The notes beneath the pieces are model-generated. The model searched no databases. It saw only the letters and a program-made list of their open reading frames with translations, and was not told the DNA's origin. Made by a program: the position numbers and the translations under genes. Positions 4,335 through 34,271 of a stretch of 35,090 nt of DNA are shown piece by piece. Numbering within the stretch: the first letter of the stretch is position 1; the number at the start of each line of letters is the position of its first letter. The DNA is from Eubacteriales bacterium (GTDB lineage: Bacteria; Bacillota; Clostridia; Oscillospirales; Oscillospiraceae), in NCBI GenBank assembly GCA_030531505.1, contig JAUNNH010000015.1, positions 1 to 35,090 on the forward strand, written 5' to 3'.

Positions 4335-6050
4335 TTATTTCCAGCGCCCGACGGCGACCCAGTCCACATACGGCGTCCAGGCCGCCCCGTAGTTCTCCTG
4401 GGTGTTTATGTTCATCCACGTCGTGGCTTTGGTCCCGACGCACGCGACGCGCTTGGCCGGGACGCTGGTGTTGTTTACCGTCACGCTCACCGCGTAGGCC
4501 GTGCTGACAAACGCGACCGGGAAGCCGACGCCCTTCACTTCCGTGCTGTTGGCGGCGACGTCATGGCCCCAGTTGAGCGTGCCCCACTGGATCAGGGTGC
4601 CGTCCGGGAGCTTCGTGTAGCCGGTCCCGCTCTGTCCGTCCTTGATGGCCAGGTTCCCGATCTTGATTGTCCAGTCCGACGGGACCTCCAGCATCTTGTC
4701 CGTCTCAGCGGCCTTGCCGAAGGCCGCGCCACGCCCGTCGGGCCGGAACTTCATCGCCCAGGAGCGGGTGGGCAGGCGCATGATGTGGGTCGCCGTATTG
4801 CCGAGCGCGTCCGTGACCTCGAGCTTGACGTCGTAGGTGGTATCTGCCGAATAGGGGGACAGGACCGTTCTCGCCCCGGATGTGAGGGTGCCCTTGTCCG
4901 TGTAGGTGCTCGCGCTCGCTTCCTTTGTGTACACCTTGAGCGTCGCGCTGTTCAGGCCGTTGATCGGGCTGATGCCCTGCGTGGCCTGCACGGCGATGCA
5001 GCTGCTGTCCTCGTCCTGCGTGCCGGCGCTGTCGCTGCGGTAGATGCTGATCCCGGAGAGCGTCGGCTTCGCGTAGGCGTTCAGCGTGACGGAGAGCGTC
5101 CCGCTCGCATACTGCCCCCGCGTGTCATAGACATAGCACGTGATCGTCGCGGAGGTATCGGTCAGCGTCCCGGTGAGGAAGGGCGAAGCCGTGTCGGTGA
5201 CGCTGCCGCAGACGATCTTGTAGCTGGAGATCGACGCACCGTATTTACAGCTGATCTTCGATGTGTCGAACGTGACCTGCGCCTTGCTGTAGCCCTGCAC
5301 GTAGGCCGCGATGTTCGCCGCCGCCGTGCCGCTGTTGTTGTACGCGTGCGCTGCCCAGCCCGAGGAGACCGTCGGCTTTACATCGTCCGCCTTGAAACTC
5401 ACGGTGATGCTCTTGGTCGTGCTCATGCTCGATGAGCCGAAGTAGGTCGTGCAGGTGATCGTGGCCGTGCCGCTCATGGCGCTCGGGAAAAGCGGCCCGT
5501 AGGTCGCGAGCGCCGGCGTCCAGGTCGCGCTCGTCGCCGCGCTGTTTGTCAGGAGCGTCTGGGTCCGCCCGCCGCAGGCAACGCTGACGGTGTGCGTCGT
5601 GCCGGAGACCTTCCGCGTGAGCGAGATGGGGATGGCGCTGCCGAAGTTCCCGTTCGAGGCGCTGATCGTGCTCGCGAAGTCCCCGACGGCGCCGCAGACG
5701 ACGCTGACGCGCGTCCAGCAGATATAGAGCTCGATCGTCTTCCCCGACCAGGAGAGGGGGATGTAGACGTCCTGGTTATAGGTATAATAGTGGTCCGCGG
5801 GCGTGAGCGTGCCGGAGTGGACCGCGACGCTGGTCCCGCCATAGCTGATCGTGTCGGATACCGGCGAGACATAGCTCGACGGGTAGACGTTATAGCTCTC
5901 CGTTGTGACCGAGACGCGCAGTTTGATATAACCGGGATGCGCGGCGTCCGGGCTCTGCTCCGTGACGGACCAGTGGTTCATCCAAACAATGTGCGTGTTC
6001 TTGTCGTCCCAGCCACTGTTGTGGCTCGCTTGTGTGTAAGTCCAGGCCAT
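4335..6050 (-). CDS. Phage tail fibre / receptor-binding protein (DUF859-like, gp53-like C-terminus)
   Basis: A 571-residue protein rich in Ser, Thr, Gly and Tyr with a repetitive beta-strand pattern, resembling DUF859-type siphophage structural proteins. The N-terminal third (WTYTQASHNSGWDDKNTH) is strand-rich; the middle carries Ig-like repeats (FKADDVKPTVSSGW, LNAYAKPTLSGISIYRSD). The last about 100 residues (KLPDGTLIQWGTLNW ... VDWVAVGRWK) match the gp53/H-type lectin-like C-terminal domain of many fibres. It probably contacts the bacterial surface. It is followed by a 73-residue protein and preceded directly by a tail-tip protein. Confidence 0.8.
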   Translation of the reverse strand: MAWTYTQASHNSGWDDKNTHIVWMNHWSVTEQSPDAAHPGYIKLRVSVTTESYNVYPSSYVSPVSDTISYGGTSVAVHSGTLTPADHYYTYNQDVYIPLSWSGKTIELYICWTRVSVVCGAVGDFASTISASNGNFGSAIPISLTRKVSGTTHTVSVACGGRTQTLLTNSAATSATWTPALATYGPLFPSAMSGTATITCTTYFGSSSMSTTKSITVSFKADDVKPTVSSGWAAHAYNNSGTAAANIAAYVQGYSKAQVTFDTSKISCKYGASISSYKIVCGSVTDTASPFLTGTLTDTSATITCYVYDTRGQYASGTLSVTLNAYAKPTLSGISIYRSDSAGTQDEDSSCIAVQATQGISPINGLNSATLKVYTKEASASTYTDKGTLTSGARTVLSPYSADTTYDVKLEVTDALGNTATHIMRLPTRSWAMKFRPDGRGAAFGKAAETDKMLEVPSDWTIKIGNLAIKDGQSGTGYTKLPDGTLIQWGTLNWGHDVAANSTEVKGVGFPVAFVSTAYAVSVTVNNTSVPAKRVACVGTKATTWMNINTQENYGAAWTPYVDWVAVGRWK

Positions 6051-8570: not shown

Positions 8571-8933
8571 TCAGAGCCGCCAGCCGCCGCGGGCGGCGGG
8601 GCGGTGCGTGCGGACCAGGAAGTCGGCGAGCTGCCGCCAGGCTGCGGCGAAGAGCGTCATGGACTGGTTGTACTTCACGATCTCGGCGTTGTGCAGGTCG
8701 ATCTGCGCGAAGAGCCAGCCGGTGTAGAGCTCCCAGTCGTAGGGGAAGGGGGCGGGCAGCACCGTCTCGGCGGTATAGCTCCCGGGCCACGCCGGCTGCT
8801 CGCCCTCGAGCGCGGCGAAGAGCTCGTTCGCGAGCTTGCCGTCGAGCAGGCGGAGCCAGCCGAGCTTCTGGGCCGCGGTGTACTGGTTCGGGCGCAGGGC
8901 GTCGACGGCGGCGATCAGCTCGCCGGCCGTCAT
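8571..8933 (-). CDS. Phage head-tail connector-like protein
   Basis: A 120-residue mostly helical protein (MTAGELIAAVDALRPNQYTAAQKLGWLRLLDGKL...; then a helical stretch around YNQSMTLFAAAWRQLADFLV). Size, helicity and place, directly after the coat-protein gene region and before the large hub protein, match gp4/gp6-type connectors that attach a tail to the portal ring. Start overlaps the previous stop by four bases (ATGA). No catalytic motif. Assignment is by context. Confidence 0.6.
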   Translation of the reverse strand: MTAGELIAAVDALRPNQYTAAQKLGWLRLLDGKLANELFAALEGEQPAWPGSYTAETVLPAPFPYDWELYTGWLFAQIDLHNAEIVKYNQSMTLFAAAWRQLADFLVRTHRPAARGGWRL

Positions 8934-9157
8934 GTCGCGGCCCTCTGGAGGCGGTCCATCGTCTGATCGAGCGCGTCGCGGGCGCGCTCGCTGCGCGCGA
9001 TCTCGGCCGCGACGGCGGGCGGCACGCTCGAGCAGCGGCCGCGCGGGAGCAGGTAGCTCACGCCGTTGATGCCGACGAAGAGGTTGGGATCCTCGCGCTC
9101 GCTCCCGCGCGGGATCGTGACCTCCACGCGGGAGTCGGTTTTAGTAGTGGTAGACAT
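8930..9157 (-). CDS. Small phage virion-associated protein
   Basis: A 75-residue protein (MSTTTKTDSRVEVTIPRGSERED...). The start at 9157 has AAAGGAG upstream. A central strand pair NLFVGINGVSYLLPRG is followed by a helix with VPPAVAAEIARSERA. Similar short proteins commonly follow the major capsid gene in gut Firmicutes phages; their function is unknown. Its stop overlaps the connector-like gene, so the two are co-translated. Confidence 0.6.
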   Translation of the reverse strand: MSTTTKTDSRVEVTIPRGSEREDPNLFVGINGVSYLLPRGRCSSVPPAVAAEIARSERARDALDQTMDRLQRAAT

Positions 9158-9206
9158 GGGGTTCTCCTTTCTGAATGTGGACGTAAGAAGGATGAAGGAA
9201 GGATTT

Positions 9207-9308
9207 TGAATGAAGAATTGAGGTGTTTCGCCGGAGGCGAAACGATTTATATCCGCCGCGCTCGCGCGGCACCGTAATTCTCCATTTTTCATTCTTCATT
9301 CTTCATTA
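9207..9308. repeat. Dispersed hairpin repeat, family 3 (inverted orientation)
   Basis: Bounded by TGAATGAAGAATTG and AATTCTCCATTTTTCATTC. Inside are hairpins GTTTCGCC-GGA-GGCGAAAC and a second GC-rich stem. It fills the gap between the coat gene and the next phage gene. Two more copies (10441, 13609) lie in opposite orientation. Confidence 0.7.
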
Positions 9309-9319: not shown

Positions 9320-10414
9320 TTAATTCTCCTCGTCGACTGCGCTGAAGCTCGAGCAGCTCATCACGCGCAGCAGGCGCTCGGGATAGAGGATCGTCGCGCC
9401 GTTGGTCTCGAACTTGTAGCCGATGGTACTGAACTGGTTCAGCGGGCCGCCGATCTCGCCCTTGTCGTGCACGATCATCTCGAGCGCCCCGCCCTCGGGG
9501 TCGATGATGCCGAAGGCGTCCTTGCCGAAGAACCAGGTGGCGTAGGTCTTGGTGTTCTGCTTGTTCTTGTAGTCGTTGCCGCCCAGCACCGGGGCAAAGG
9601 CGTTCTCGATGAAGCGCACGCCGTGCAGCTCGCCGATCTCGCCGTTGAAGAGTTCCTCGGGAGCGGCGTACTTGTGCGCCTCGATCCAGCCCTCGCACGC
9701 ACGCAGATCGTGTGCGACCGAGGGGTGCACGACGGCGTAGTAGCGGCCGTTGAGGCGCGGGGCACGGTTCTTCTTGAGGATGGTGACCGCCTTGTTGATC
9801 ATGGCCGGGGTCAGCAGGCTCATGGCCGTGGCGCTGGCCTCCATCTGGGCGCAGCTCGTCGGGGTCGCGACGACGCCGGAGCCGGTCGCTGCCGCGCCGG
9901 TCGAGGGGTTCACATTGTCGCAGTAGAGCACGTTCGTCCCCAGCAGCAGCGCGTCGCGGATCAGCTTCTCCTGCGTCTCGGCGGCGGAGGCGCCCATCTC
10001 CTCGGTCGCGCCGAGGATCACGTCGTCGTAGGCGCGCAGCTCCAGCTTGTCGGTGATGGAGGTGTAGGTGCCGTACTGGTCGACGGTGCCGGTCACGGTG
10101 GTCACGCCGAACTTCTGGCCGGTCGGGATCACGCCCTCGGTCAGCTTCGCGGCGCGCTCGAAGGTATTCCACTTGCGCCACTCGACCTGGCCCTTGTGGT
10201 TCTTCGGCAGGGGCTGGCGCTTGCCGAACTGCGCGTAGAAGAGCTCGGCGCGGGCGTTCTCCAGCAGCTCCGTGTCGTAGAAGGCCTTGAGCTCGGGGGT
10301 GAGGGTGTGGGCGTTGTCGAAGGCGGTCGGCGTGCCGTTGCCGGCGTTGACAAAGTTCTCGGTGCCGTTCACGAGCGTGCCGGCATCGGCAAAGAATTGA
10401 AGATCAAAAAACAT
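9320..10414 (-). CDS. Major capsid protein, N4-gp56 family, with L27-like cleavable N-terminus
   Basis: A 364-residue coat protein matching the N4-gp56 family in pattern: FYDTELLENARAELFY near residue 45, GKRQPLPKNHKGQVEWRKW, then TVTGTVDQYGTYTSITDKLE and a C-terminal FETNGATILYPERLLRV. It opens with MFFDLQFFADAG; LQFFA is the motif after which Firmicutes ribosomal protein L27 and some phage coat/scaffold proteins are cut by the Prp protease. A Prp-like protease gene lies two genes upstream. Expected to form the capsid shell after scaffold-guided assembly and N-terminal trimming. Start at 10414 with GAAAGGAG upstream. Confidence 0.88.
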   Translation of the reverse strand: MFFDLQFFADAGTLVNGTENFVNAGNGTPTAFDNAHTLTPELKAFYDTELLENARAELFYAQFGKRQPLPKNHKGQVEWRKWNTFERAAKLTEGVIPTGQKFGVTTVTGTVDQYGTYTSITDKLELRAYDDVILGATEEMGASAAETQEKLIRDALLLGTNVLYCDNVNPSTGAAATGSGVVATPTSCAQMEASATAMSLLTPAMINKAVTILKKNRAPRLNGRYYAVVHPSVAHDLRACEGWIEAHKYAAPEELFNGEIGELHGVRFIENAFAPVLGGNDYKNKQNTKTYATWFFGKDAFGIIDPEGGALEMIVHDKGEIGGPLNQFSTIGYKFETNGATILYPERLLRVMSCSSFSAVDEEN

Positions 10415-10440
10415 ACGTTTCTCCTTTCAGTTGGTTGAAT

Positions 10441-10652
10441 TGAATGAAGATTGAAGAATGAAGAATTGTGGTGTGCCGCGAAGCGGCACGGTTTCTAATC
10501 GTTTCGCCTCCGGCAAAACACCACAGAACACCTTGCCGCATTTGCCGTTCCCGGGCCGGGCTTGAGCGCCACGGCCCGCCAACGGCGCGGCTGCGGAAAT
10601 TGCATCCTGCCTTCTCCTGCCACCGGCAGCGGCAGGACGCAATTCTTCATTC
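10441..10652. repeat. Dispersed hairpin repeat, family 3, long copy
   Basis: Starts TGAATGAAGATTGAAGAATG and ends CAATTCTTCATTC. Contains hairpins GTGCCGC-GAA-GCGGCAC and GTTTCGCC-TCC-GGCAAAAC, then an inverted pair TGCATCCTGCC/GGCAGGACGCA. It occupies the whole gap between the scaffold-like and coat genes; nothing coding is seen in it. Confidence 0.7.
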
Positions 10653-10655
10653 CCA

Positions 10656-11309
10656 TCATGGGTACAGCTTTTCCCCTCTCGCGGCGGCGGCGCGGATCTC
10701 CTCCCGGAGCCGCTCGCGCGCGCTGTGGGAGAGCGCGCGGGGATCGGATCGCGTAAGGGCCGCCGCGTCGAGGCCCCCGCCCTCGCGCGGGCGCAGCGCC
10801 CCCTGCGCCGCCGTGCGGGCCAGCAGCGCCTTTGCCTCCTCGGCGCCGCGCCGGGCCGCGCGCTCCTCAAAGGCCTCGCGGTGCAGCGCGCACCAGGCCT
10901 CCCGCACCCCGACGCCGAGCCCGGGCGCGGTCAGGCGCAGGAAGGCCGGGTCATGCAGCGCCGCGTCGAGATCGAAGCCGGGCAGCTCCTCGCGCAGCGC
11001 CTCCCCCTGCGCGACGAGGGACGCAAAGTGGGCACGGAGGGCGTCAGAAGGAACGCGCTCCGCTCTGTTTCCGCCGCCCTCGTTGAGAGTCGGCGAAAAC
11101 GCCGCATCCGCTCCTTCCTTACGCTCCGGCTCCTCTCCCTTGTCATGGCGAACCAGTGACCGTGTCACGGATGTGGCAATCCGCCCGCCGGAGGCGCTCT
11201 GTCCCACAGTGGCTTCGGTCCCTTCGCTCTCGCGCGGGATCCCGGCGCTCACGCTCTCGCCCGGGGTGACGGGCTTCTCGCCCAGCGCCTCCCGCATCGC
11301 CTCGGTCAT
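10656..11309 (-). CDS. Scaffold-like phage head protein with repeat-derived insertion
   Basis: A 217-residue protein placed between the Prp-like protease and the coat gene, where scaffold proteins sit. It is highly charged and helical in its second half (LVAQGEALREELPGFD, EAFEERAARRGAEEAKALLA, HSARERLREEIRAAAARGE). Residues about 43-89 are encoded by a composite dispersed repeat (families 1 and 2) read in frame, giving the odd segment RIATSVTRSLVRHDKG ... GGNRAERVPSD. That segment is likely not part of the ancestral protein. Start overlaps the protease stop by four bases. The scaffold role is inferred from position and composition. Confidence 0.65.
   Translation of the reverse strand: MTEAMREALGEKPVTPGESVSAGIPRESEGTEATVGQSASGGRIATSVTRSLVRHDKGEEPERKEGADAAFSPTLNEGGGNRAERVPSDALRAHFASLVAQGEALREELPGFDLDAALHDPAFLRLTAPGLGVGVREAWCALHREAFEERAARRGAEEAKALLARTAAQGALRPREGGGLDAAALTRSDPRALSHSARERLREEIRAAAARGEKLYP
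11043..11183. repeat. Composite repeat (family 2 + family 1) inside the scaffold-like gene
   Basis: GTCAGAAGGAACGCGCTCCG, then a stem TTTCCGCCG/CGGCGAAAA, then CGCATCCGCTCCTTCC (family 2), followed by TGTCATGGCGAACCAGTG ... GTGGCAATCCG (family 1). The whole is translated in frame. Confidence 0.75.
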
Positions 11310-11578
11310 GCCCGCACCTCCAGCTTCACAGCGGCGGGGTAGTTCTCCGCGAGCAGGCGGCAGCCGCCCACGATCAGCTCATAGCTGCGCCTGTCCCCGC
11401 CGCGCACGCGGCACCAGCCGTCCCGCAGGCGGATCTGCGCCGCCTGCTCCCCTTCGCAGAGCGTGAAGAGCAGGATGCTCAGCGCCGCGCAGACCGGGTC
11501 CTGCCCGCGGATGCCCGCCCCGGCGTGGCCGCTGAACTCCAGCGCCGGGAGCTTCGGCTCGTACACGACGCGCGTCAT
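11306..11578 (-). CDS. Prp-family cysteine protease, probable capsid-maturation protease
   Basis: A 90-residue protein with the two Prp signatures: FSGHAGAG with catalytic His18, and DPVCAALS with catalytic Cys30, followed by a hydrophobic helix. The host Prp of Firmicutes removes the N-terminal extension of ribosomal protein L27 after LQFFA. Here the gene sits between portal and scaffold-like genes, the slot of a prohead protease, and the coat protein carries LQFFA at its N-terminus. The inferred job is to trim the coat protein during assembly. It overlaps the portal stop and the scaffold start by four bases each, so all three are co-translated. Confidence 0.82.
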   Translation of the reverse strand: MTRVVYEPKLPALEFSGHAGAGIRGQDPVCAALSILLFTLCEGEQAAQIRLRDGWCRVRGGDRRSYELIVGGCRLLAENYPAAVKLEVRA

Positions 11579-13584
11579 GGCAGCGCCTCCTCCGCCGTCT
11601 GCGCGCGGGCGGCGGTCACGGCCTCCGGCTCGCCGGGGAGCGCGGCGGGCGCCCCGTCCTCGGGGGCGGGACCCTCGTCCGGGGCAGCCTCCGCCTCCTC
11701 CATCGGCGGGGCGGGCGGCAGCTCCTCCCCCGTGAGGCCGAGGGCGAGGTCGGGCCGGTAGCGCCGGGCAAGGGCCACGGCGAGCTGCTTCCAGCGGCCC
11801 AGCTCCTCCAGTTTCTCCCGCAGCCGCAGCGTCGCGCCGACGCGCGAGAGCGCCGTGTCCTTCCCGTCGAATTCCATCAGCGAGAGGCAGCCGAGGGCCT
11901 GCTGCTCGCGGCCCGGCTCGAAGAGGCCGAGGCGGTAGAGCTCCATGGCAAGCTCGTTCTGGCTCAGGCGGGAATAGGCGCTGCGCCGCTGGGCGCTGAC
12001 CTTCACGTCGAAGACCGGGGCCGCGAGGCCGAGCGGCACGCCGCCCGGTCCCGTGAGCGGGCGCGGCAGGAGCGCGGCGTTCGAGAAGCTCACATAGTCC
12101 TCCCCGCCGCCGCCCGTGATGCGGAACTGCCGCGGCAGGCTGTAAAACTGGCGGATCAGTTCGATGCAGAGCTCCACGATCTCCGCGAAGGCCTGGTAGG
12201 ACGCGCGGCTCGCGTCGCGGCTGCCCTTGCCGCTGGCCTCCTGCAGCGCCGCGATCGCGGAGGCGGCGGTGACCCCGGCGTGCATGGTGCCGGTGGCGGT
12301 CTCGGTGTTGCCGCTGGTCTCCCTGAGCTCGCGGATCGTGCTCTCGAGCACGGCGAGATAGGCCCCGGGCAGGCCCGCGAAGCCGATCTGCCGCAGGCTG
12401 TCCTCGCCGAGGTTGCCGCTCACGTGCACGAGCGGGCGGCTGAGGTCGAGGAACTCCTCCTCGTTCACCGAGCCGTCGATGCGCTCGAAATAGCGCGGCG
12501 TCGCGCCGACGAGGGCGTTCTTGACGAAGGCGGTGCGCAGCAGGTCGATGGCGGTCTGGTTGTTGGCGCAGAGGTCGACGAAGCCGTAGCCGCAGGGGCT
12601 GCCCTCCACCGGGAAGAGCGGATCGAGCACGAAGGGATAGCGCCCGTGGGCGTAGAGACCGACGTCAGAAGAAACTCGCTCCGCTCTGTTTCCGCCGCTC
12701 TCTGCCGCCTCTCCCCTGTCATTGCGAACCAGTGACCGTGTTACGGATGCGGCAATCCGTTCCTCCTCTCCGACGCTGCCGCCGGGAGTACGGATTCCCA
12801 CGTCCGTCTGCGGACTGGCTCGGAATGACAGGTCGGGGTCGGCCCCGTTCTCCGTGGCGTACAGCACCGTGTCGCCGACGTACTTGCAGTAGTGCAGCAC
12901 GTCGCGGCCAAGAACGCGCTTTTTGTAGTAGACCTCGATGACCGTGGCCTTACCCTCGAGGCTCACCGCGTCGTCGTAGACAAAGCGCGTGGCGAGGAAG
13001 GGGTTGGAGCGCATGCGGCCTCTCAGCTGCGGGTAGCGCTCGGCGAGCGCGTCCTCGTCCTCGAGGTGGGTGCAGAAGAGGTAGCGGCTCTTCTGGATGT
13101 CGTTCACCCCCGGCTCCCAGAAGAGGTTGAGGAGATCGACCCGCTCGATGGCGATATCGCCGAGGCCGCCGCACTTCTCCGCGTCCCAGACGACGCGGTA
13201 GCAGGCTGTGCCGGTCTTGAGCTTCTGCCACATGGCCTGGTCGTAGGTGCGCTCGAAGCGGTTCTGCTCGAGGATGCAGGGAAGGATCGCGCTCAGGAGC
13301 CGGGCCTGCTCGCGGTCGCCCGGCTCGCGCGGGAGGATCAGCGGCTCGGGGAAGGCGTCCATGGCGTCGGCGTGCTTGGAGACGATGACGTTATGCAGCC
13401 ACCCGCTCTCGCTGCGAAAGCCCTCCTCGTCCCGGGTGCCGCCGCGCGTCTCCTCGAAGCGGTTGCGCAGCTTCCACCAGTTCTCGGCGGCCACCACCCG
13501 CCGCTCGAGACCGGCCTTGCCGCTCTTGTATTTCTGCAGCACGGCTGTGAATTCCCGCAGCCGCCCCGCGTCGATCGTTGGCAT
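11575..13584 (-). CDS. Phage portal protein, large P22/podovirus type, with repeat-derived insertion
   Basis: A 669-residue protein following the large terminase. The N-terminal half is portal-like (LRNRFEETRGG, VIVSKHADAMDAFPEP, WQKLKTGTACYRVVWD, ERVDLLNLFWEPGVNDI) and the length is that of P22-type portals rather than the shorter siphophage type. It would form the dodecameric ring through which DNA is packed and to which the connectors bind. Residues about 251-307 are encoded by the same composite repeat found in the scaffold-like gene, in the same reading frame; without it YATENGADPDLSFR would join GLYAHGRYPF. The C-terminal about 40 residues are acidic and Pro/Ala-rich. GAAAGGAG lies upstream of the start. 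Confidence 0.85.
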   Translation of the reverse strand: MPTIDAGRLREFTAVLQKYKSGKAGLERRVVAAENWWKLRNRFEETRGGTRDEEGFRSESGWLHNVIVSKHADAMDAFPEPLILPREPGDREQARLLSAILPCILEQNRFERTYDQAMWQKLKTGTACYRVVWDAEKCGGLGDIAIERVDLLNLFWEPGVNDIQKSRYLFCTHLEDEDALAERYPQLRGRMRSNPFLATRFVYDDAVSLEGKATVIEVYYKKRVLGRDVLHYCKYVGDTVLYATENGADPDLSFRASPQTDVGIRTPGGSVGEEERIAASVTRSLVRNDRGEAAESGGNRAERVSSDVGLYAHGRYPFVLDPLFPVEGSPCGYGFVDLCANNQTAIDLLRTAFVKNALVGATPRYFERIDGSVNEEEFLDLSRPLVHVSGNLGEDSLRQIGFAGLPGAYLAVLESTIRELRETSGNTETATGTMHAGVTAASAIAALQEASGKGSRDASRASYQAFAEIVELCIELIRQFYSLPRQFRITGGGGEDYVSFSNAALLPRPLTGPGGVPLGLAAPVFDVKVSAQRRSAYSRLSQNELAMELYRLGLFEPGREQQALGCLSLMEFDGKDTALSRVGATLRLREKLEELGRWKQLAVALARRYRPDLALGLTGEELPPAPPMEEAEAAPDEGPAPEDGAPAALPGEPEAVTAARAQTAEEALP
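12664..12833. repeat. Composite repeat (family 2 + two inverted family 1 units) inside the portal gene
   Basis: GTCAGAAGAAACTCGCTCCG at 12664, a forward family 1 unit at 12717-12759 and a reverse unit ending GGCTCGGAATGACAG at about 12831. CGACGCTGCC joins the two, as it does in the intergenic copy at 23747-23897. Length keeps the portal frame open. Confidence 0.75.
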
Positions 13585-13734: not shown

Positions 13735-15162
13735 TCACTTCCCCAGCGGGTCGCGGTAGAACGACGGCTCCTCCGGCGGTCTCATCGGCGTCACCGGGCG
13801 CGACATGCAGGCGTAGCGCCACTCGTCGGCGGCGTGGTCCTCGCCGGTCGTGTCGAGATCCTCCGGCACGGTCTTCGAGAAGCGCAGCAGCGGCACCGTG
13901 CGGATGAAGGCCTCGCAGGTGTCGAAGACATACATGCGCGGGTAGCCCTGCGGATCGAACTGCAGCCGGTAGTGGCACTGCATCCAGCCGGGGATCCGCC
14001 CGTTCTCGCCCGGCACGAAGTGCAGCCCCCACTTTCCCGCCGTCTCCGCCACGCTCTCCCCGCGGCTGCCGTCCCAGATCGAGGGGTCCGCCACGCCCCC
14101 GATCACCCGGCCGCGCAGCCAGGGGTGCTCGCGCTCGAGCCGGGCGATCTCCCGAAACTGCCGCTCCGGGGTCCAGCGCAGGCCCTCGTTGGGCGTGCCG
14201 GTGCAGCCGTAGAGCTCGAGCACGCGGTAGAGCACCCCGTCGTAGTCCACCGCCCACCAGGCGCAGGAGAAGGGTCGGCCGTAGCCGAAGTCGTAGCTGC
14301 GGAAGACCGTCCAGCCGCGGCAGGCGGTCGAGGCGAGATCGAAGGGCTCGATGACATGGGTGAAGCGCCGCTGGCGCTTAAGCTCCTCTTCCGTTCCGGT
14401 AAAGCCGTGCTTTTGAGCCAGCGCCGTATCGGGCCGCACCCGGAAGTCCTCGAAAAACTGCCCCTCGAACAAGTCCCAGCGCCCGTGGAGCCAGGCCTCC
14501 CGCAGCCGGGGCGGGAGACTCTCCAGCCGCCGGACATAGTCGGGGTCGCGGCGCATGAGCGCCTCGTTGTCGGTGGCGAGAGCGGGGATGAAGCTGTAGT
14601 CCTCCGGCCGCTCGCCCTCGCGGAAGCGCCGGTCGATAAAGAGCCGCTTGACCCAGCCGTGCCCCTCGCCGCCGGGGTTGCAGGTGTAGTAGACGCGCTT
14701 GGGGAAGGCGTTGGCCCCGCGCACGCAGGCGCGCAGACGGTCCATGCGCTCCTCGGGCTGCTGCGTGGCCTCGTCGACGAAGAGCACGTCCACCTCCGTG
14801 CCCTGGAAGCGCTGGGCGTCACGCTCGTCGTCGCAGTAGCGGAAGAGGATGCGCGAGCCGTTCGGGAAGACGAGGTGCTTCTTCGTGTCGCTGTACTGCG
14901 CGAGGCGGCGGGCCGGGTCCTCGCTGTGCACCCGCAGCAGCGCGCAGAGCGGCAGGATGTGGTTCTCCTGCAGCTCGGGGTAGCTGCGGCGGATGATCAT
15001 GACCTTGATGCCCGGGTAGCGGTAGCAGAGCAGCACCGCCTTTACGCGCACGGCCCAGCTCTTGCCGCCGCCGCGCGCCCCGCCGTAGGCGACGTACCGG
15101 TGCGTGTCGGTGAAGAAGCGCCGCTGCTTCGCGCTCGGCGCGGGGATGTTCAGATCAGGCAT
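13735..15162 (-). CDS. Phage terminase large subunit
   Basis: A 475-residue packaging motor. The ATPase half shows Walker A GGARGGGKS (27-35), Walker B LFVDEAT with Asp130/Glu131, and a coupling motif YTCNPGG (159-165). The RNase H-like nuclease half shows its acidic residues in SYDFGY (Asp291), VADPSIWD (Asp359) and EDHAADEW (Asp446). It docks on the portal, translocates DNA and cuts it. Upstream are a small-terminase candidate and a repeat-filled gap. All expected motifs are intact, so this gene could encode a working enzyme. Confidence 0.95.
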   Translation of the reverse strand: MPDLNIPAPSAKQRRFFTDTHRYVAYGGARGGGKSWAVRVKAVLLCYRYPGIKVMIIRRSYPELQENHILPLCALLRVHSEDPARRLAQYSDTKKHLVFPNGSRILFRYCDDERDAQRFQGTEVDVLFVDEATQQPEERMDRLRACVRGANAFPKRVYYTCNPGGEGHGWVKRLFIDRRFREGERPEDYSFIPALATDNEALMRRDPDYVRRLESLPPRLREAWLHGRWDLFEGQFFEDFRVRPDTALAQKHGFTGTEEELKRQRRFTHVIEPFDLASTACRGWTVFRSYDFGYGRPFSCAWWAVDYDGVLYRVLELYGCTGTPNEGLRWTPERQFREIARLEREHPWLRGRVIGGVADPSIWDGSRGESVAETAGKWGLHFVPGENGRIPGWMQCHYRLQFDPQGYPRMYVFDTCEAFIRTVPLLRFSKTVPEDLDTTGEDHAADEWRYACMSRPVTPMRPPEEPSFYRDPLGK

Positions 15163-16652: not shown

Positions 16653-17432
16653 ATGTCAGGCCCCATTTCCTATGACCGTCACATCTTCGCCGATAACCTG
16701 CTGGCGCTGATGAAGCAGTACGGCGAGAAGCAGGTGGACGTGGCGCGTCTGCTCGGCGTGAGCAAGGCCGCCGTTTCCGGCTATGTACGCGGGGAGCAGA
16801 TGCCCCGCATGGACAAGATCGAGGTGCTCGCGCAGCACTACGGCGTGACGCGCGGGGCGCTGCTCTCGGAGCCGGAGGAGGACGTGGTCCTGCCCGTGTC
16901 CCCGACGCATCCGGCGCTCGCGGTGTACGACAGCCTCAACGACGCCGGGCAGCGGGAGTTCATCCGCTACGGCCGCTTCCTGACGCAGCAGCCGAGCTAT
17001 CAGGTGCCGAAGGAGCAGCGCAAGGTGGAGTACATCAAGCACTACCTGGTCCCGGCCGCGGCGGGCTACGCCTCCCCGATCGAGGGCGAGGACTACGAGC
17101 TTTTGGAGCGCGACATGGACACGCCGCTCGAGGCGGACTTCTCCATCACGATCCGCGGGGACAGCATGGAGCCCTACATCCGCGACGGCAGCACGGTCTA
17201 CGTGCAGCGGGACGCGCCGCTGCGGGAGTTCGACGTGGGGGTGTTCTACGTGGATGGGGACGTGTTCTGCAAGCAGTGGTGCGTGGACTACCGCGGGACG
17301 CTGCATCTGCTCTCGGCCAACCCCCTGCGGCAGGACGCGAACATTGTCATCCCGCGCGAGAGCGGCCGTGTCTGCGTCTGCTTCGGGAAGGTCCTGCTCC
17401 CGACGCGCCTGCCGGAACCGCACTACGGGTGA
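16653..17432 (+). CDS. Phage repressor: Xre HTH with LexA/CI-type S24 self-cleaving domain
   Basis: A 259-residue repressor. The N-terminal helix-turn-helix (about residues 26-50, VDVARLLGVSKAAVSGYVRG) binds DNA; the C-terminal S24 domain carries the Ala137-Gly138 cleavage site in AAAGYASP, the nucleophile Ser171 in GDSMEP and Lys207 in DVFCKQW. Such proteins hold a prophage silent and cut themselves when RecA is activated. All catalytic residues are intact. It is transcribed divergently from the phage genes with back-to-back promoters, as in a lysogeny switch. GGAAGGAG precedes the start. Base composition equals that of the host. Confidence 0.92.
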   Translation: MSGPISYDRHIFADNLLALMKQYGEKQVDVARLLGVSKAAVSGYVRGEQMPRMDKIEVLAQHYGVTRGALLSEPEEDVVLPVSPTHPALAVYDSLNDAGQREFIRYGRFLTQQPSYQVPKEQRKVEYIKHYLVPAAAGYASPIEGEDYELLERDMDTPLEADFSITIRGDSMEPYIRDGSTVYVQRDAPLREFDVGVFYVDGDVFCKQWCVDYRGTLHLLSANPLRQDANIVIPRESGRVCVCFGKVLLPTRLPEPHYG

Positions 17433-26142: not shown

Positions 26143-26219
<77 letters not shown>

Positions 26220-26222
26220 AGA

Positions 26223-26256
26223 ACACTCGATTTCGTAAGAAATCGGGTGTTTTTCT
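26223..26256 (+). terminator. Element-borne terminator behind the tRNA
   Basis: ACACTCGATTTC-GTAA-GAAATCGGGTGT then TTTTCTT. Replaces the native tRNA terminator that is now at the right end (34914-34943). Confidence 0.8.
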
Positions 26257-26292
26257 TACTTTTTTGGCTTTTTTGTGTTCAGCATTTTGGGC

Positions 26293-26314
26293 TTGGACAA
26301 CAAATGGACAACAA
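26293..26314. other. Candidate integrase arm-type sites, left
   Basis: TTGGACAACAAA followed at once by TGGACAACAA. The same TTGGACAACAAA occurs at the right end (34742-34753) followed by GTCAACAA. Confidence 0.5.
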
Positions 26315-26359
26315 GAGAATCACAGTTTCTTCTTTTCTTACTGCGGAAAGGAAGAACAA

Positions 26360-27562
26360 ATGGCATCTATCAAAGAAGAACGAACAAAAAACAAACATCT
26401 TTCATTCAAGATTCGTGTGTGTTTGGGTCGTGATGAAAGCGGCAAACAAATCTCTAAGGCTATGCGTTGGCATCCGCCCGAAAGAATGACACCCGCCAAA
26501 GCAAGGAAAGAAGTTCTGAGGGTGGCGGCAGTTTGGGAGGCGGAACAACTTGCTTCTGCTGATCTCCAAGAGGTAAAAGAGGAAGAAAGCACAATCTCCT
26601 ACACCTTCGGGCGTTTCGTGGATGAAGTGTGGATTCCCCTTTGTGTGCGGGACGGCTCCCACCGCCCTTCTACGGTCGCAATGTACACCAACATTTTGAA
26701 GGTAATGCGCCCACATTTTGAAGAGCAGCCATTGGCAGAAATCACGGGAATACAGATTTCAAAATACCTCACTTGGTTGCGGAACGACTATCGAACCAAC
26801 TTCGGCAAGCCTCTTGCGGACAAGTCCATCAAGCATCATTACAACATTCTCTCTTTCATTTTTGGTTATGCGGAGAAACAAGACTTGATCGACAAGAACC
26901 CCATGCGCAAGGTAGACTCTCCAAAAGTCCGTAGAAGGGCGGTGGACGCTCTTTCTGAGGATGATGCACGACGGTTTTTCAGAGAATTGGGAGAAGTTGA
27001 TTTTGACTTCCGCTGTATTCTTCAATTACTGATAACAACGGGATTGCGGCGGGGTGAATGTATCGGTCTGCAATGGCAAGACATTGACTTTGAGAACCAA
27101 GTGATTCATGTGGAGAGGGCGGTCACTTACACGCCCGAAAGTGGTATTATTGTTGCACCGCCGAAAACCGCCACGAGCATTCGGACAATTCCTCTTGTGG
27201 ACAGCACAACGGCAATGCTGAAAGCACTTTATCACCAACGCCAAAAGCAATACCCTAACTGCTTTTTGGTTACTGCATTTCTTTTCTGCAAGGAAGGTGA
27301 ACCCTTCGAGCCTCGTGACCCAAGCGCAGTCACAAGGCGAATGAAGCGTTTTGTGCAGAGGGCGGGGCTGCCCGATGTGTCGCCCCATGATCTCCGCCAC
27401 ACTTGCGCAAGTCTGCTTCTGAGCAGCGGCGCAGACATTAAGAGCGTCCAAGAGATACTTGGTCACGCAGACGCAAGTACAACGCTCAACTTCTATGTAA
27501 AAACCGATCTGCGGCAAATGCGGGTCGCAACAGAGAAATACGCAAAAGCCTTTCACCTCTGA
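26360..27562 (+). CDS. int: Tyrosine-type site-specific integrase of the tRNA-Ala element
   Basis: A 400-residue integrase with an N-terminal arm-binding region (1-75, basic), a SAM-like core-binding domain (about 80-185) and the catalytic domain with Arg230 in TTGLRRGE, Lys269 in PPKT, His343/Arg346 in HDLRHT, His369 in LGHAD and Tyr379 in NFYV. It recombines attP with the tRNA 3' end and, with a directionality factor, excises the element. The gene lies just inside attL reading inward. ATG at 26360 has AAAGGAAG; the frame is open into the tRNA but has no better start. AT-richer codon use than the flanking host genes. Confidence 0.95.
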   Translation: MASIKEERTKNKHLSFKIRVCLGRDESGKQISKAMRWHPPERMTPAKARKEVLRVAAVWEAEQLASADLQEVKEEESTISYTFGRFVDEVWIPLCVRDGSHRPSTVAMYTNILKVMRPHFEEQPLAEITGIQISKYLTWLRNDYRTNFGKPLADKSIKHHYNILSFIFGYAEKQDLIDKNPMRKVDSPKVRRRAVDALSEDDARRFFRELGEVDFDFRCILQLLITTGLRRGECIGLQWQDIDFENQVIHVERAVTYTPESGIIVAPPKTATSIRTIPLVDSTTAMLKALYHQRQKQYPNCFLVTAFLFCKEGEPFEPRDPSAVTRRMKRFVQRAGLPDVSPHDLRHTCASLLLSSGADIKSVQEILGHADASTTLNFYVKTDLRQMRVATEKYAKAFHL

Positions 27563-27574
27563 GTGGCGGTGAGA

Positions 27575-27651
27575 CTTGCAAAAATGTTTTTGCAAGGTTT
27601 TTGCAATTTTGCAAATGAAAGTGGCGGGTAGTCCTCTGACTGCCCGCCACT
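27575..27651. terminator. Bidirectional terminator and adjacent palindrome
   Basis: Between convergent int and WYL genes: AGTGGCGGGTAGT/ACTGCCCGCCACT (27620-27651) with TATTTT after it. Ahead is a 22-base palindrome CTTGCAAAAA-TG-TTTTTGCAAG (27575-27596) and two further TTTTGCAA motifs, possibly binding sites. Confidence 0.75.
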
Positions 27652-27654
27652 ATT

Positions 27655-28782
27655 TTAGTATTTAGATAGAATTTTCTGCAAGTATTCCTTGTACTGCTCC
27701 ACGACAGAAGCGGGCGACTGAATGACCGCTTTTGTGCCGAAACCGCAAATCCACCCAAAGAATTGTTCGCTGATTTCCACATCGGCAAAGACTGTAAAAT
27801 GGTGATCGTCGCTTCGAGAATAGTTGACATTGGTGTGTCCAAAACGCTCAACGGCTGTGTCCAAGAGAGAAGAGACAAAGCGGATGCCTACACGCTGTTT
27901 CTCGCCGCCGTACATGGAGAAAACTCTTTGCGTGTATGTTTTCATGTCGATTGCGGAAAAGGCTTCTGCGCCCTCTCTTGGCTCGCCTATGCGGTTAATA
28001 GACTTCATGCGGTCAACTCGGTATGTCCTCATTTCGTGGCTGTAATCGTCAAAAGCAAGCAGATAATAGTTGCCGTCGTTGATAATCAGTTTATAGGGGC
28101 TGACGATGTACTTTGCGCCCTTCCGCCGTTCTGTCTGCTTCTCCAAATCATCAATGGTGTACTTCAAATACTGAAAACTGATCTTCTCGGGGATGTGCTT
28201 TTCTCCTTCAATCATCTTGCTCATGGCATCGTAAATCGTGGAGACATTGCGGAGCGTGGATTTATTCAGCGTCCGCAAGCGGGCGGTGACAAGGGCATCT
28301 GTGCGGATTTCCTTTGCTTGCTCTTCGCTGATAAAGCCTTTGATAATATCTACAAGGCGTTCCGCCTCACTTTGGGAAATGTAGCGGGAGGCATAAATGC
28401 ACTCAGCCATAAGGCGAATATCAGAGAGTTCATACTTGCGGCGGACAACACGAAAGCCCTTCAAATGCTTGTCGTAAACGATGAACTTTTCACTGTCATA
28501 GTCATCTGTGTCAATGGCTTTTTCTGCGTCAAAAATCGTTGCAGCATCGTCCGCATTTTCCAATAGCCAAAGAGCCTTGTTGATCTCGTCAATGTCACGA
28601 TAGATGGAACGGCGTTCTGCTTCAATGCCAAGGTCATCCCGCAAATACTCTACAATGGCATCTGCGGGGGCGGCGTGGTTTTCATCGGTGTATTTGAGCA
28701 AGTATTGAAGCACGAGGTAAGGCTTCATTTTCTGATTGGCTTTTCTGCCATGTTGCGGATTGGCTTTTGGTTTTCTTGACAT
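27655..28782 (-). CDS. WYL-domain transcriptional regulator
   Basis: A 375-residue regulator. The N-terminal winged helix-turn-helix (about 20-75; YLRDDLGIEAERRSIYRDIDE) is DeoR-like; the WYL domain lies at about 210-290 (KYIVSPYKLIINDGNYYLLAFD, then TYRVDRM), and a WCX-type C-terminal extension follows. WYL proteins often sense nucleic-acid ligands and control mobile elements or defence genes. A box GGTCGTTATTTTGG 57 bases upstream matches boxes at three other promoters of the element, so this protein is a good candidate for the factor that binds them and itself. The start at 28782 has AGAGGA upstream. Confidence 0.85.
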   Translation of the reverse strand: MSRKPKANPQHGRKANQKMKPYLVLQYLLKYTDENHAAPADAIVEYLRDDLGIEAERRSIYRDIDEINKALWLLENADDAATIFDAEKAIDTDDYDSEKFIVYDKHLKGFRVVRRKYELSDIRLMAECIYASRYISQSEAERLVDIIKGFISEEQAKEIRTDALVTARLRTLNKSTLRNVSTIYDAMSKMIEGEKHIPEKISFQYLKYTIDDLEKQTERRKGAKYIVSPYKLIINDGNYYLLAFDDYSHEMRTYRVDRMKSINRIGEPREGAEAFSAIDMKTYTQRVFSMYGGEKQRVGIRFVSSLLDTAVERFGHTNVNYSRSDDHHFTVFADVEISEQFFGWICGFGTKAVIQSPASVVEQYKEYLQKILSKY

Positions 28783-28838
28783 AGCACTTGTTCCTCTGCG
28801 TTTTTTCTTATAATACCACGCCAAGAGAGAAAAAGAAA

Positions 28839-28852
28839 GGTCGTTATTTTGG
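28839..28852. promoter_or_regulatory. Shared regulatory box near the WYL gene
   Basis: GGTCGTTATTTTGG, between the WYL gene (minus) and the structured leader promoter (plus). Matches GGTCGTTATWWTGG at 33694, 34044 and 34564. Confidence 0.55.
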
Positions 28853-28864
28853 CACTATGCCATC

Positions 28865-28892
28865 TTGAAAATCTCGGGCTATGTGATATACT
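28865..28892 (+). promoter_or_regulatory. Promoter of the structured leader and lipoprotein gene
   Basis: TTGAAA (28865-28870), 16 bases, TATACT (28887-28892). The hairpin leader begins right after it. Confidence 0.6.
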
Positions 28893-29055
28893 GATAGTGC
28901 GACACAATCTCATATTTTTGACGAAACAAAGGATGTGTTTTTACTTCGGTAAAAACGCACCCTCAATTTTGGCATCCTTTGGGTTCGTCAGAAGATTGTG
29001 TCGCAGCAATGAGGCTATGCGTTTTTCGGTGCGTAGCTTCGGCTACGCACTTTTT
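28893..29055 (+). ncRNA. Long structured RNA leader with terminator/antiterminator pair
   Basis: Pairings, outside in: TGCGACACAATCT/AGATTGTGTCGCA (28898-28910/28993-29005, exact 13 bp); TGACGAA/TTCGTCA (28919-28925/28984-28990); CAAAGGATG/CATCCTTTG (28927-28935/28973-28981); GTTTTTAC-TTCG-GTAAAAAC as a UUCG-capped hairpin (28937-28956). Then GTGCGTAGC-TTCG-GCTACGCAC plus TTTTT forms a terminator (29029-29055), while GCTATGC (29014-29020) can pair with GCGTAGC (29031-29037), an alternative that breaks it. The lipoprotein start follows 22 bases later. It could be a riboswitch-like attenuator or an independent small RNA of about 160 bases. No known riboswitch class is recognised. Confidence 0.65.
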
Positions 29056-29076
29056 ATCTTATGGAGGTAGAAACAC

Positions 29077-29664
29077 ATGAAGAAAACTCTCGCACTTCTC
29101 TTAGCACTTGTTATGGTGCTGTCCCTCTGCGCTTGCGGTCAGAAGGCATCCGAAAACAATGCGCCCGTAACGGAAGATAACAAACTGACAGCAGAACAAC
29201 AGATTGTTGTGGATGCCGTGAAATCTCAAATTCACTCTGATACTTTTGCTGCATGGCAGAACCTTGCGAAAGACTTTAAGGGTAGCGAACCCAAAGCCCC
29301 CGAAGTAACTGCTGTTTATCACTATGCAATCGATGATTTTGAAGGCGAAAAGATGGATTGTTTCCTTGTCAACATTTCTGCGGATGTTGCGTATTGGATG
29401 AATGAAGAAGCACAGCAAGGCATAATGAATGAATCCTATCAGATTTTTGTAAGTGCAGATGGCAAAACTGTAATGGATTCCATTTCTGTTGATGCGGGGA
29501 ATTTCAATGGTGATACATCCACACCCGAAGGAAGAGCAACCTATCTTCTTTGGATGTTTGGGAGCATGATGAATGGCAGTTATGAAGGAAACTTCATCAA
29601 TGATCGCGAGACCGTTACCAAATGGACTGCGGACGAAATTGCGGTAATCAATGCAAATAAGTAA
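29077..29664 (+). CDS. Element-encoded lipoprotein of unknown function
   Basis: A 195-residue protein with a lipoprotein signal: MKKTLALLLALVMVLSLCAC with Cys20 as the probable lipidated residue (lipobox LCAC), then an Asn/Glu-rich linker (ASENNAPVTEDN). The mature part (about 38-195) is soluble, acidic, with strands such as VTAVYHYAIDDFEGEKMDCF and YQIFVSADGKTVMDSISV, and would sit on the outer face of the membrane. No family recognised. GGAGG lies 9 bases before the start. It is the only obvious surface cargo in the element and is preceded by the structured leader, so its expression is probably gated at transcription elongation. Confidence 0.75.
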   Translation: MKKTLALLLALVMVLSLCACGQKASENNAPVTEDNKLTAEQQIVVDAVKSQIHSDTFAAWQNLAKDFKGSEPKAPEVTAVYHYAIDDFEGEKMDCFLVNISADVAYWMNEEAQQGIMNESYQIFVSADGKTVMDSISVDAGNFNGDTSTPEGRATYLLWMFGSMMNGSYEGNFINDRETVTKWTADEIAVINANK

Positions 29665-29668
29665 TACG

Positions 29669-29698
29669 AAAGGGAGCGATTGATTTCGCTCCCTTTTT
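29669..29698. terminator. Bidirectional terminator
   Basis: AAAGGGAGCGA/TCGCTCCCTTT with a 6-base loop and T-run on the plus side, between the convergent lipoprotein and recombinase genes. Confidence 0.85.
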
Positions 29699-30260
29699 AC
29701 ATGAGTTGGGCGTGATTCAAAATCGCCTCTTCAATTCTCTGAGGCTCAATTCCAATGTACCGTTGTGTAACTGCGGCGGAACTGTGCTGTAAAAGCCTTT
29801 GCACCAAAGCAATGTCATAACCATTCGCTTTGTAGATTTCGGTCGCATACCATTTGCGGAAACTGTGCGTGCCGATGCCCTCAAAACCCAAATAGTCACA
29901 CACGAGTGCAAGTTGTTTCTGAATGGCTCTTTCGGTGATGGGAAAGATTAAATCCTTTGCGCCGATGCCATTGCGCAGACAGTAGTTCTCAATGTACTGT
30001 TTGACCACAAGGGGAACTGTGAACACTCTGCGCTTTCCCGTTTTCTGTTCTGTAATCTCCAAGCGGTAGCGGTCGCCGTCCTTCACGATGTCGCAAGGTC
30101 TGAGTTTGAGGATGTCGCTAATCCGCAAGCCCAAGTTCCCCTCCAACACAAGGGCGGTGGCGGCTCGCTCGTTGGGGCGGAAGAAGCAACTCCCTTCCCG
30201 CATGGCGGTGATAATTTCCTTGTATTGCTCGGTTGTCAGAGCCGTTGTTTTCTTGTTCAT
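29697..30260 (-). CDS. Catalytic-domain-only tyrosine recombinase
   Basis: A 187-residue protein holding just the catalytic domain of the tyrosine recombinases: Arg46 in GNLGLRISD, Lys73 in EQKTGK, His132/Arg135 in THSFRKW, His159 in LLQHSS and Tyr168 in QRYIG. All six core residues are present, yet the SAM-like core-binding domain (about 90-100 residues) is missing. AGGAG precedes the start at 30260; an upstream in-frame ATG (30329) lacks support. It may be an accessory recombinase for excision, a DNA inversion enzyme, or work as part of a complex. It is distinct from the element integrase. Confidence 0.82.
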   Translation of the reverse strand: MNKKTTALTTEQYKEIITAMREGSCFFRPNERAATALVLEGNLGLRISDILKLRPCDIVKDGDRYRLEITEQKTGKRRVFTVPLVVKQYIENYCLRNGIGAKDLIFPITERAIQKQLALVCDYLGFEGIGTHSFRKWYATEIYKANGYDIALVQRLLQHSSAAVTQRYIGIEPQRIEEAILNHAQLM

Positions 30261-30385
30261 GGCTTCTCCTTTTGGCTGAAAGTTCGTATTTGGAGCGTTC
30301 AAAGTTCGCATCATTTCGGCTTTTTTCAAAAACCCTTGAAATTCTTGGATTTTGCTGTTCGTAATTTTTTAATTTTAGGAACTTT

Positions 30386-30418
30386 CCCTCTTGGTTCTCC
30401 ATTTCAGAGCCAAGAGGG
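30386..30418. other. Strong hairpin between two minus-strand genes
   Basis: CCCTCTTGGTTCT and AGAGCCAAGAGGG pair around a 7-base loop. No T-run follows on the minus strand, so it may be a processing or stability hairpin rather than a terminator. Confidence 0.5.
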
Positions 30419-30428
30419 ATTTCAGCGT

Positions 30429-30707: not shown

Positions 30708-30756
30708 TGTTATTATCTCCTTTGTTGGTTGGTGTTGTGTTCTCTTAACTGTCTAT

Positions 30757-30862: not shown

Positions 30863-30919
30863 GTCTACAATGAAAAAGAGCGTCCACTTTCGTGACGCTC
30901 CCCAAAGGAAGGTAATTTT

Positions 30920-33128: not shown

Positions 33129-33152
33129 TTTCGTTTCTTCCTTTCTATTGGA

Positions 33153-33708: not shown

Positions 33709-33721
33709 ACTTGTTATATTA

Positions 33722-34058: not shown

Positions 34059-34060
34059 AC

Positions 34061-34258: not shown

Positions 34259-34271
34259 TGTCTCCTTTTCA

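Follow-up and report, generated by a model that had tools for sequence, protein, structure and literature searches.

A prophage-encoded Prp-family protease paired with a coat protein carrying an L27-like N-terminal motif

The window, a 35,090-nucleotide stretch of DNA from an Eubacteriales bacterium, contains a prophage of a gut bacterium, in the head module of which a gene for a Prp-family cysteine protease stands close to that of a coat protein with a cleavable-looking N-terminus. It is very probable, from comparison with related phages and known systems, that this phage-owned Prp removes a short coat prepeptide during head assembly. The enzyme would remove the N-terminal prepeptide MFFDLQFF from the newly made coat protein by a cut before Ala9, as a step in head assembly, and would do for the window phage what host Prp does for Staphylococcus phage 80alpha; a Prp supplied by the host would allow some related phages to manage without a prp gene of their own. 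In this reading we infer that cleavage takes place, where it falls and that it serves assembly. The phage enzyme would matter in this case, since the host genus seems to have neither a Prp of its own nor the L27 extension.

The gene order in the cassette is portal-prp-scaffold-coat (Table 1), and the ORFs of the coat and of the 90-residue protein were both confirmed at the positions given in the earlier note. The prp ATG overlaps the portal stop codon and the prp stop codon overlaps the scaffold ATG, which suggests coupled translation of prp with its neighbors. The locus belongs to the phage head module and is not adjacent to rpmA, as it would be in the rplU-prp-rpmA order of ribosomal-processing Prp genes. 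The coat ORF is preceded by a good ribosome-binding site (gaaaggag), and its product, which starts MFFDLQFFADAG, does carry the L27-type motif first noticed there; the cut would be expected between Phe8 and Ala9.

Table 1. Features of the prophage in the window
Feature	Position	Strand	Evidence
Tail protein, 571 aa	4335..6050	-	PHROG 372 E 5.2e-53
Internal virion protein-like, 661 aa	6805..8790	-	PHROG 511 E 1.3e-46
Small head-module protein	8571..8933	-	PHROG 12105 E 1.7e-22; present in several relatives' modules
Small head-module protein	8930..9292	-	PHROG 15239; present in several relatives' modules
Major coat protein, N4-gp56 family, 364 aa	9320..10414	-	TIGR04387 199.5 bits; PHROG 1357 E 1.8e-67
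Predicted coat prepeptide MFFDLQFF	10391..10414	-	Sequence; motif conserved in relatives; cleavage predicted
Scaffold-like protein, 217 aa, without cleavage motif	10656..11309	-	Position; PHROG 13908 (unknown function) E 1.4e-9
Phage Prp-family cysteine protease, 90 aa	11306..11578	-	PF04327 31.9 bits; PHROG 4478
P22-type portal protein	11575..13584	-	PF16510 80.9 bits; PHROG 156 E 4.2e-64
Terminase large subunit	13735..15162	-	PF03237 58.1 bits; PHROG 2 E 1.2e-43
S24/HTH repressor, probable prophage repressor	16653..17432	+	PF00717 46.6 bits; PF01381 34.6 bits

Pfam score, active-site register and predicted fold all place the 90-residue protein among the Prp cysteine proteases, the family PF04327 of Pfam and C108 of MEROPS. 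Both Prp signatures ascribed to it are present, GHAG at residues 17-20 and DPVCAALS at residues 27-34. The PF04327 match exceeds the cut-off of 27 bits and covers profile positions 12-46 only, and PHROG 4478, annotated as "peptidase", matches residues 7-88 (E 1.8e-9). His18, Asp27, Cys30 and Ser34 align with His22, Asp31, Cys34 and Ser38, given as active-site residues of SaPrp in PMC9405229, at the SaPrp spacing. The AF2 model (pLDDT 85.9, from a 10-row alignment) matched 7kld_B in a Foldseek search (E 2.2e-6, TM 0.85 on the query), and all 12 PDB matches of this predicted model with E < 0.001 were Prp structures; structural modeling, named in the earlier note as a check on the His18/Cys30 dyad, yielded a predicted Prp fold with four active-site residues that fit SaPrp. 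The same four residues are invariant across ten aligned phage Prps. The GH...C pattern was found in all 112 distinct phage Prp domains covering the active site, the search model being built from such sequences, and 109 of the 112 had the exact SaPrp spacing; one cut domain that matched by accident (L191) was left out of the count. A single branch (SH-aLRT 97) lies between phage and housekeeping Prps, and the window Prp scored under the cut-off for all seven NCBIfam ribosomal-processing Prp equivalogs listed, the best match having an E-value of 3.9e-7 and 30.2 bits against a cut-off of 136.

The conservation of His and Cys in 112/112 domains points to catalysis, and makes it very improbable that the LQFFA-like N-terminus serves uncut as a signal for assembly or for a chaperone, with phage Prp binding it in a chaperone role, as might be supposed from 80alpha, reported to need an intact scaffold N-terminus but not its cleavage (PMC5744158), and from the chaperone role for Prp discussed in PMC9405229. 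An inert passenger role for Prp was ruled out by the conservation of the active site together with the joint loss of prp and prepeptide.

A strict motif, [LI]Q[LFYHM][FY]A, was counted in the first 35 residues of proteins from 144 loci with distinct coats; one coat scan had retained the 80 top-scoring of 286 relatives, the other the 80 top-scoring of at least 541. It occurred in 124 of the 137 called coats and in 56 of 1248 non-coat proteins, which by eye are scaffolds, encoded immediately upstream of the coat; elsewhere in these loci there were three matches in 375,579 residues. The motif at coat N-termini is not a matter of chance. Its presence on those 56 proteins could mean that the protease in fact cuts a different virion protein, for example a scaffold or minor head protein, and that the coat motif is a relic in this lineage. 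However, the window scaffold, which starts MTEAMREALGE, lacks the motif, no motif-bearing scaffold was found by the strict-motif scan in the window or its nearest kin (L066-L068), and in L082 and L119, near kin of the window phage in which portal is directly followed by scaffold, it is the coat prepeptide that has vanished along with prp; another substrate is therefore extremely unlikely.

The main argument for removal of the coat prepeptide by phage Prp comes from co-occurrence. Among 37 scored coats from hosts without housekeeping Prp, mostly incomplete MAGs as in the comparison overall, 32 had both prepeptide and phage prp, five had neither, and none was mixed (Fisher's test, 2.3e-6). This count leaves out L096 and L106, whose contigs are cut: both loci have a prepeptide and no Prp on the contig, and neither host has a housekeeping Prp. 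If they are counted against the association, the value becomes 3.6e-5. The bins of L104 and L130, which are among the 32 concordant rows, carry the titles Bacteroidaceae or Bacteroidales, and misbinning is possible; leaving both out gives 30 and 5. On the coat tree each trait changed four times, and there are three independent pairs, all concordant (sign test p 0.25, which with three pairs cannot reach 0.05). All scored prepeptide coats without prp on the contig were in hosts with their own Prp. The proposal in the earlier note that the phage carries its own maturation protease is, by this comparison, well supported: the pairing of phage Prp with a cleavable-looking coat stands, and the cleavage itself is what we infer.

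Host genomes were searched for 50 of the 80 genome-contig loci; L122 and L132 come from the same isolates as searched loci, and the contigs of L074, L075 and L124 match in length those of G016, G003 and G022. Ten loci, for which the start of host L27 was not found or read, were dropped before the co-occurrence count (L071, L077, L083, L090, L099, L101, L114, L128, L140, L144); L090 was left out of scoring; here, as in L120 and L133, some 10 kb or more separates the coat gene from a Prp located on its contig. The prepeptides of L134, L135, L372 and L138, missed by the regular expression, were assigned by hand in the co-occurrence table, and L365-L367, the host state of which is unknown, are in the coat tree and outside the co-occurrence tables.

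The sample from the order comprised 50 coats, 22 of which are in the co-occurrence table and all of which entered a count with a relaxed motif. A prepeptide by this motif was found in 37/37 coats with phage Prp, including three (G224:C77, G356, G124) whose Prps score under the Pfam cut-off. The 13 coats without Prp on the contig comprised seven with a prepeptide, all in housekeeping-Prp hosts, and six without. The relaxed-motif background was 32/320 for other ORFs (first 34 residues) and 8/53 for homologs of other phage genes. In four of the prepeptide coats that lack a phage Prp the N-terminus is nearly that of the host L27: the coats start MLKLNTQLFAHTYGG or similar, the host L27 MLKLNIQLFAHKKG. 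A divergent Prp in G306 had 31.9 bits with the local model and 14.0 with Pfam, and no PHROG match. G108 (LQLFA coat, short L27, no Prp seen at first) was considered as a counterexample and rejected, as a divergent ORF after portal was counted as Prp (8.6 bits with the local model, 13.9 with Pfam, full-length PHROG 4478 match with E 0.0019), a judgment made after the exception had been noticed.

Among the 26 rows with a Prp-bearing host, 14 also had a phage Prp; therefore, absence of the host enzyme is not the sole reason for its carriage, and a rule confining phage Prp to hosts devoid of the enzyme was rejected. The 12 rows without phage Prp in such hosts include five genomes (G178, G136, G262, G221, G102) with a further Prp on another contig, and L142, in which a Prp fragment is kept.

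Action of the phage Prp on host L27, also suggested earlier, was not supported. Of 24 congeners, 21 yielded an L27, which in 21/21 starts MAHKKG, without the cleavable extension; in none of these was prp adjacent to L27, and the search for a housekeeping Prp was negative in all 24, so that neither the host prp beside rpmA nor the L27 with LQFFA that the earlier note proposed to look for was seen. In the window's own assembly (74% complete) neither L27 nor L21 was found, and the L27 state of its host is therefore taken from the congeners; the only Prp found in that assembly is the phage one. The genus thus appears to be devoid of both Prp and the L27 extension, and host L27 was rejected as a target for this genus. 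That the host ribosome is the chief target of the phage Prp, which would cut or displace its L27, and that the coat motif is incidental, would agree with the L27 role of housekeeping Prp described in PMC9405229 and with the long L27 of hosts of some related phages, but is made very unlikely by the absence of the extension in all 21 congeners and by the joint loss of prp and coat prepeptide.

A broader and rather doubtful idea is that L27 extension with Prp and phage prepeptide with Prp form one shared currency of tag and remover. If so, a phage of this order has two options, to imitate the tag of its host and rely on the host's Prp or to carry a Prp itself, and bacterial lineages that have dropped the L27 extension and Prp shut out borrowers; loss of the two may then have acted as an escape from phages. 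The main reading, that of a phage-owned coat protease, already brings the isolated precedents of host Prp in 80alpha and of the Cp-1 protease under one wider scheme, in which the same small protease comes from host or phage, and links a ribosome-maturation step, testably, to which phages a bacterium can support. A function is also suggested for a gene family publicly recorded as peptidase or ribosomal protein. Literature searched by title and abstract contained no report connecting a Prp encoded by a phage with an L27-like motif on the coat or with loss of Prp in the host, although an earlier mention of either is possible.

The pairing of prp and prepeptide is wider than this order, as in seven named Firmicutes phages the head module holds an intact prp, with N-termini of a similar kind on scaffold and coat. 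Like the window phage, phages with the PHROG 4478 "peptidase" (TP712, PLgT-1, phiFL3A, BL3, phiS13 and others; the PHROG match among named phages was tested for TP712 only) have prp after portal in the head module and an LQxFA-type N-terminus on the coat, theirs being on the scaffold also. Their hosts are mostly Lactobacillales or Bacillales. The coats of TP712 and PLgT-1 match PF25209, as does the window coat, but, unlike it, bear an Ig-like domain. Database records label the prp gene of the named phages as peptidase, ribosomal protein, hypothetical or unknown. Dorea phage DO134P1 was rejected as an intact-Prp phage: its Prp-like stretch is unannotated, with no ATG, GTG or TTG before the active site.

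Unlike the window Prp, orf13 of Streptococcus phage Cp-1, which we take to be the Cp-1 protease, scores under the PF04327 cut-off (18.5 bits), and the Cp-1 coat is phi29-like, with no LQFFA seen in its N-terminus. The Cp-1 protease is described as a phage-encoded Prp relative of MEROPS clan CR that processes the major head protein (PMC9405229, PMC12445089), the coat being said in these sources to lose about 40 or 48 residues. The window phage likewise encodes its own Prp-related protease, for which coat processing is suggested by co-occurrence. In 80alpha, coat and scaffold are reported to be cut by host Prp (PMC5744158, PMC9405229), and phage with uncleavable or pre-cleaved coat to be viable (PMC5744158), so trimming may be dispensable. 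Similarly to 80alpha as described in these two papers, the window coat has an L27-like N-terminal motif with a predicted cut between Phe and Ala; in contrast to 80alpha and many relatives, its scaffold has no motif, and, unlike in 80alpha, the protease is encoded by the phage itself, in a host genus that seems to be without Prp.

The window takes up positions 1-35090 of a 54.8-kb contig in a 2.24-Mb assembly that is 74% complete, and its phage looks like a prophage, since a probable S24 repressor gene accompanies the head module (table). Past the coat gene, the minus strand encodes small head proteins, an internal virion protein-like protein and a tail protein. The prp gene shares an ATGA with the portal stop at one end and with the scaffold start at the other, and these overlaps suggest translational coupling. 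Repeated stretches, read through in frame, are common to the scaffold-like (11042-11183) and portal (12663-12759) genes, some with further copies elsewhere in the window. The start of a phage-type integrase ORF (26174-27562) lies within a tRNA-Ala gene (26143-26218), the end of which recurs as direct repeats at 34878 and 35036; positions 26143-35090 are probably a second integrated element.

Head-module and probable repressor genes of the window phage
Feature	Position	Strand	Location
Terminase large subunit	13735-15162	-	head module
P22-type portal	11575-13584	-	head module
90-residue Prp	11306-11578	-	between portal and scaffold-like gene
Scaffold-like protein	10656-11309	-	head module
Coat	9320-10414	-	downstream of scaffold-like gene
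Probable S24 repressor	16653-17432		

The assignment of the 90-residue protein to Prp was upheld by two families, the predicted fold and four active-site residues. PF04327 scored 31.9 bits (cut-off 27) with an alignment restricted to positions 12-46, while PHROG 4478 spanned residues 7-88; a profile built from ten phage Prps found the solved Prps 2g0i, 2idl, 4peo, 7jvs and 1s12. The AlphaFold2 model (ten-row alignment; pLDDT 85.9, pTM 0.77) had S. aureus Prp 7kld_B as a structural match (E 2.2e-6, TM 0.85), and each of the 12 hits below E 0.001 was a Prp structure. According to PMC9405229, SaPrp has a His22-Cys34 dyad and also requires Asp31 and Ser38; His18, Asp27, Cys30 and Ser34 of the window protein are identically spaced and invariant across the ten phage Prps. 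Structural modelling could not have refuted the His18/Cys30 dyad, because four unbound Prp structures place theirs unsuitably (PMC9405229). The NCBIfam equivalog cut-offs for ribosomal processing were missed widely (30.2 vs 136 bits). Phage and housekeeping Prps fell on either side of one branch (SH-aLRT 97) in a tree of 61 and 22 representatives, respectively (104 columns, with 45 of the 80 inner branches unresolved); these phage genes therefore seem not to have been acquired recently from their present hosts.

Prp was found in 8 of 24 genomes of the host genus, each time adjoining a phage portal, and L27, found in 21 of the 24, started with MAHKKG and had no extension in all 21. For other families of the order, L27 turned up in 14 of 15 genomes: nine were extended, with an adjoining Prp, and five short, without Prp. 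Neither L27 nor L21 was found in the incomplete window assembly, the L27 state of this host being read from its congeners. As their L27 has no extension, the phage protease seems to lack a host L27 substrate here, contrary to the earlier note's suggestion that it could act on host L27; the proposed search for a host prp beside rpmA and an extended L27 yielded neither in the 21 congeners in which L27 was found.

The window Prp alone retrieved few matches, one phage record and one viral contig. Scans with a coat profile contributed 80 loci from genomes (the best 80 of 286 relatives) and 80 from viral contigs (the best 80 of at least 541). Altogether 170 loci were examined, with Prp in 128 and a coat in 167. 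The L27-type motif previously noted in the window coat proved recurrent: across 144 loci whose coats are distinct, 137 coats were called, and 124 of them have [LI]Q[LFYHM][FY]A within the first 35 residues. In the same stretch it also occurred in 56 of 1248 non-coat proteins, by eye the scaffold directly upstream of the coat, and matched further inside proteins 3 times in 375,579 residues. The window scaffold lacks this motif.

The predicted cleavable N-terminus (prepeptide; MFFDLQFF in the window) and phage Prp were kept or lost together where hosts offered no enzyme, as judged from 68 coats scored by whether the host has housekeeping Prp beside a long L27. In hosts without it, 32 coats had both, five had neither and none was mixed (Fisher 2.3e-6, or 3.6e-5 if L096 and L106, which have the prepeptide but whose cut contigs hold no Prp, are counted against). 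In hosts with it, all 26 coats had the prepeptide (four assigned by hand), 14 with phage Prp and 12 without it on the contig that bears the coat; among these 12, five genomes hold further Prp elsewhere, L142 keeps a Prp fragment, and in G178, G136, G262 and G221 no portal was seen near the coat either. After correction on the tree, each trait changed 4 times and 3 independent pairs remained, each concordant; with so few, a sign test cannot reach 0.05. L104 and L130, both counted among the 32, are possibly misbinned (bin titles Bacteroidaceae and Bacteroidales); in the tree, L104 falls among phages from Prp-bearing hosts. L090, a Firmicutes-type prophage contig in a bin so titled, is perhaps misbinned too.

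The clearest joint absences are those of L119 and L082, whose coats match that of the window at 88% and 85% (best tblastn segment). Their portal is followed by the scaffold with no prp between, the coats start MAVTDITVNMG and MPVTDITANIN without prepeptide, and Prp was not found in the host genomes. In L142:1-5400, motif-bearing scaffold and coat genes adjoin only a C-terminal Prp fragment and, by eye, a pantothenate and coenzyme A gene set; the host has its own Prp, and the locus is probably a decayed prophage. For L133 with L056, L120 with L297, L090 with L298, and L059, Prp lies on the coat's contig, about 9 kb or more away, in other gene orders.

When 295 genomes were sampled evenly across the order, 46, the window's own included, had the coat, at 50 places not counting the window. 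With the motif relaxed to hydrophobic-x-x-Phe-small or acidic and close variants (background 32 of 320 other ORFs over the same 34 residues), a prepeptide was assigned to all 37 coats with phage Prp. Three of the 37 Prps fall below the Pfam cut-off, and two more are divergent and were accepted because they directly follow the portal: G306, at 31.9 bits with a local model, and G108, at 8.6 bits with that model and E 0.0019 against PHROG 4478. Divergent Prp-like proteins under the Pfam cut-off directly follow the portal at L361:6848-7189, L370:7161-7607 and L376:10804-11178, one of them having additional residues that separate His from Cys. Of 13 coats without Prp on the contig, seven had the prepeptide, all in hosts with housekeeping Prp. 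The other six had none; three of their hosts lack a housekeeping Prp and have a short L27; in the other three (two assemblies incomplete) neither L27 nor Prp was found.

Phages that would rely on the host enzyme have coat starts resembling the host's L27: four coats from hosts with a single Prp, the housekeeping one, start MEKLNLQLFAHTYGG, MEKINIQLFAHTYDG, MLKLNTQLFAHTYGG and MLKLNTQLFAHTYGG, and the L27 of these hosts starts MLKLNIQLFAHKKG. That the L27 site of each species is specific to its own Prp (PMC9405229) fits a choice between imitating the host site and carrying an enzyme.

The pairing of phage prp with a motif-bearing coat extends beyond this order. The TP712 Prp retrieved 23 phage records, with some phages entered twice. 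Among eight named phages read, seven (TP712, PLgT-1, phiFL3A, BL3, TMW 1.1447 P1, phiS13 and Krappator27) have an intact prp in the head module, in six either directly after an annotated portal or separated from it by one small gene; the TP712 gene at the portal position is annotated as unknown. All seven have NLQxFA-like starts on both scaffold and coat, the loosest being NLQRFS (TP712 coat) and MKLQLFA (TMW scaffold). Dorea phage DO134P1 has MANLQLFA (scaffold) and LGLQVFTA (coat), and an unannotated Prp-like frame (L391 around 4480-4755) without ATG, GTG or TTG ahead of the active site, either using another start codon or decayed. Records label prp as peptidase, ribosomal protein, hypothetical or unknown, and the label "ribosomal protein" could mislead annotation.

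Prp identity, motif pairing and joint loss thus argue for the phage's own maturation protease, as first proposed; throughout, we infer coat cleavage by it, in the window between Phe8 and Ala9. Streptococcus phage Cp-1 encodes a relative of Prp for processing its major head protein, which is reported to lose about 40 or 48 residues (PMC9405229, PMC12445089). Its orf13, which we take to be the protease, did not reach the PF04327 cut-off (18.5 bits), and the coat start read has no LQFFA. In staphylococcal phage 80alpha, host Prp cuts coat and scaffold between Phe and Ala, and viability requires neither cut, although it does require the scaffold start (PMC5744158). The window phage has an L27-like site, as does 80alpha, but owns the protease that 80alpha receives from its host; it shares a phage-owned protease with Cp-1 and differs in the L27-like site of its coat. 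With its own predicted protease and an L27-like site, the window case is intermediate between 80alpha and Cp-1.
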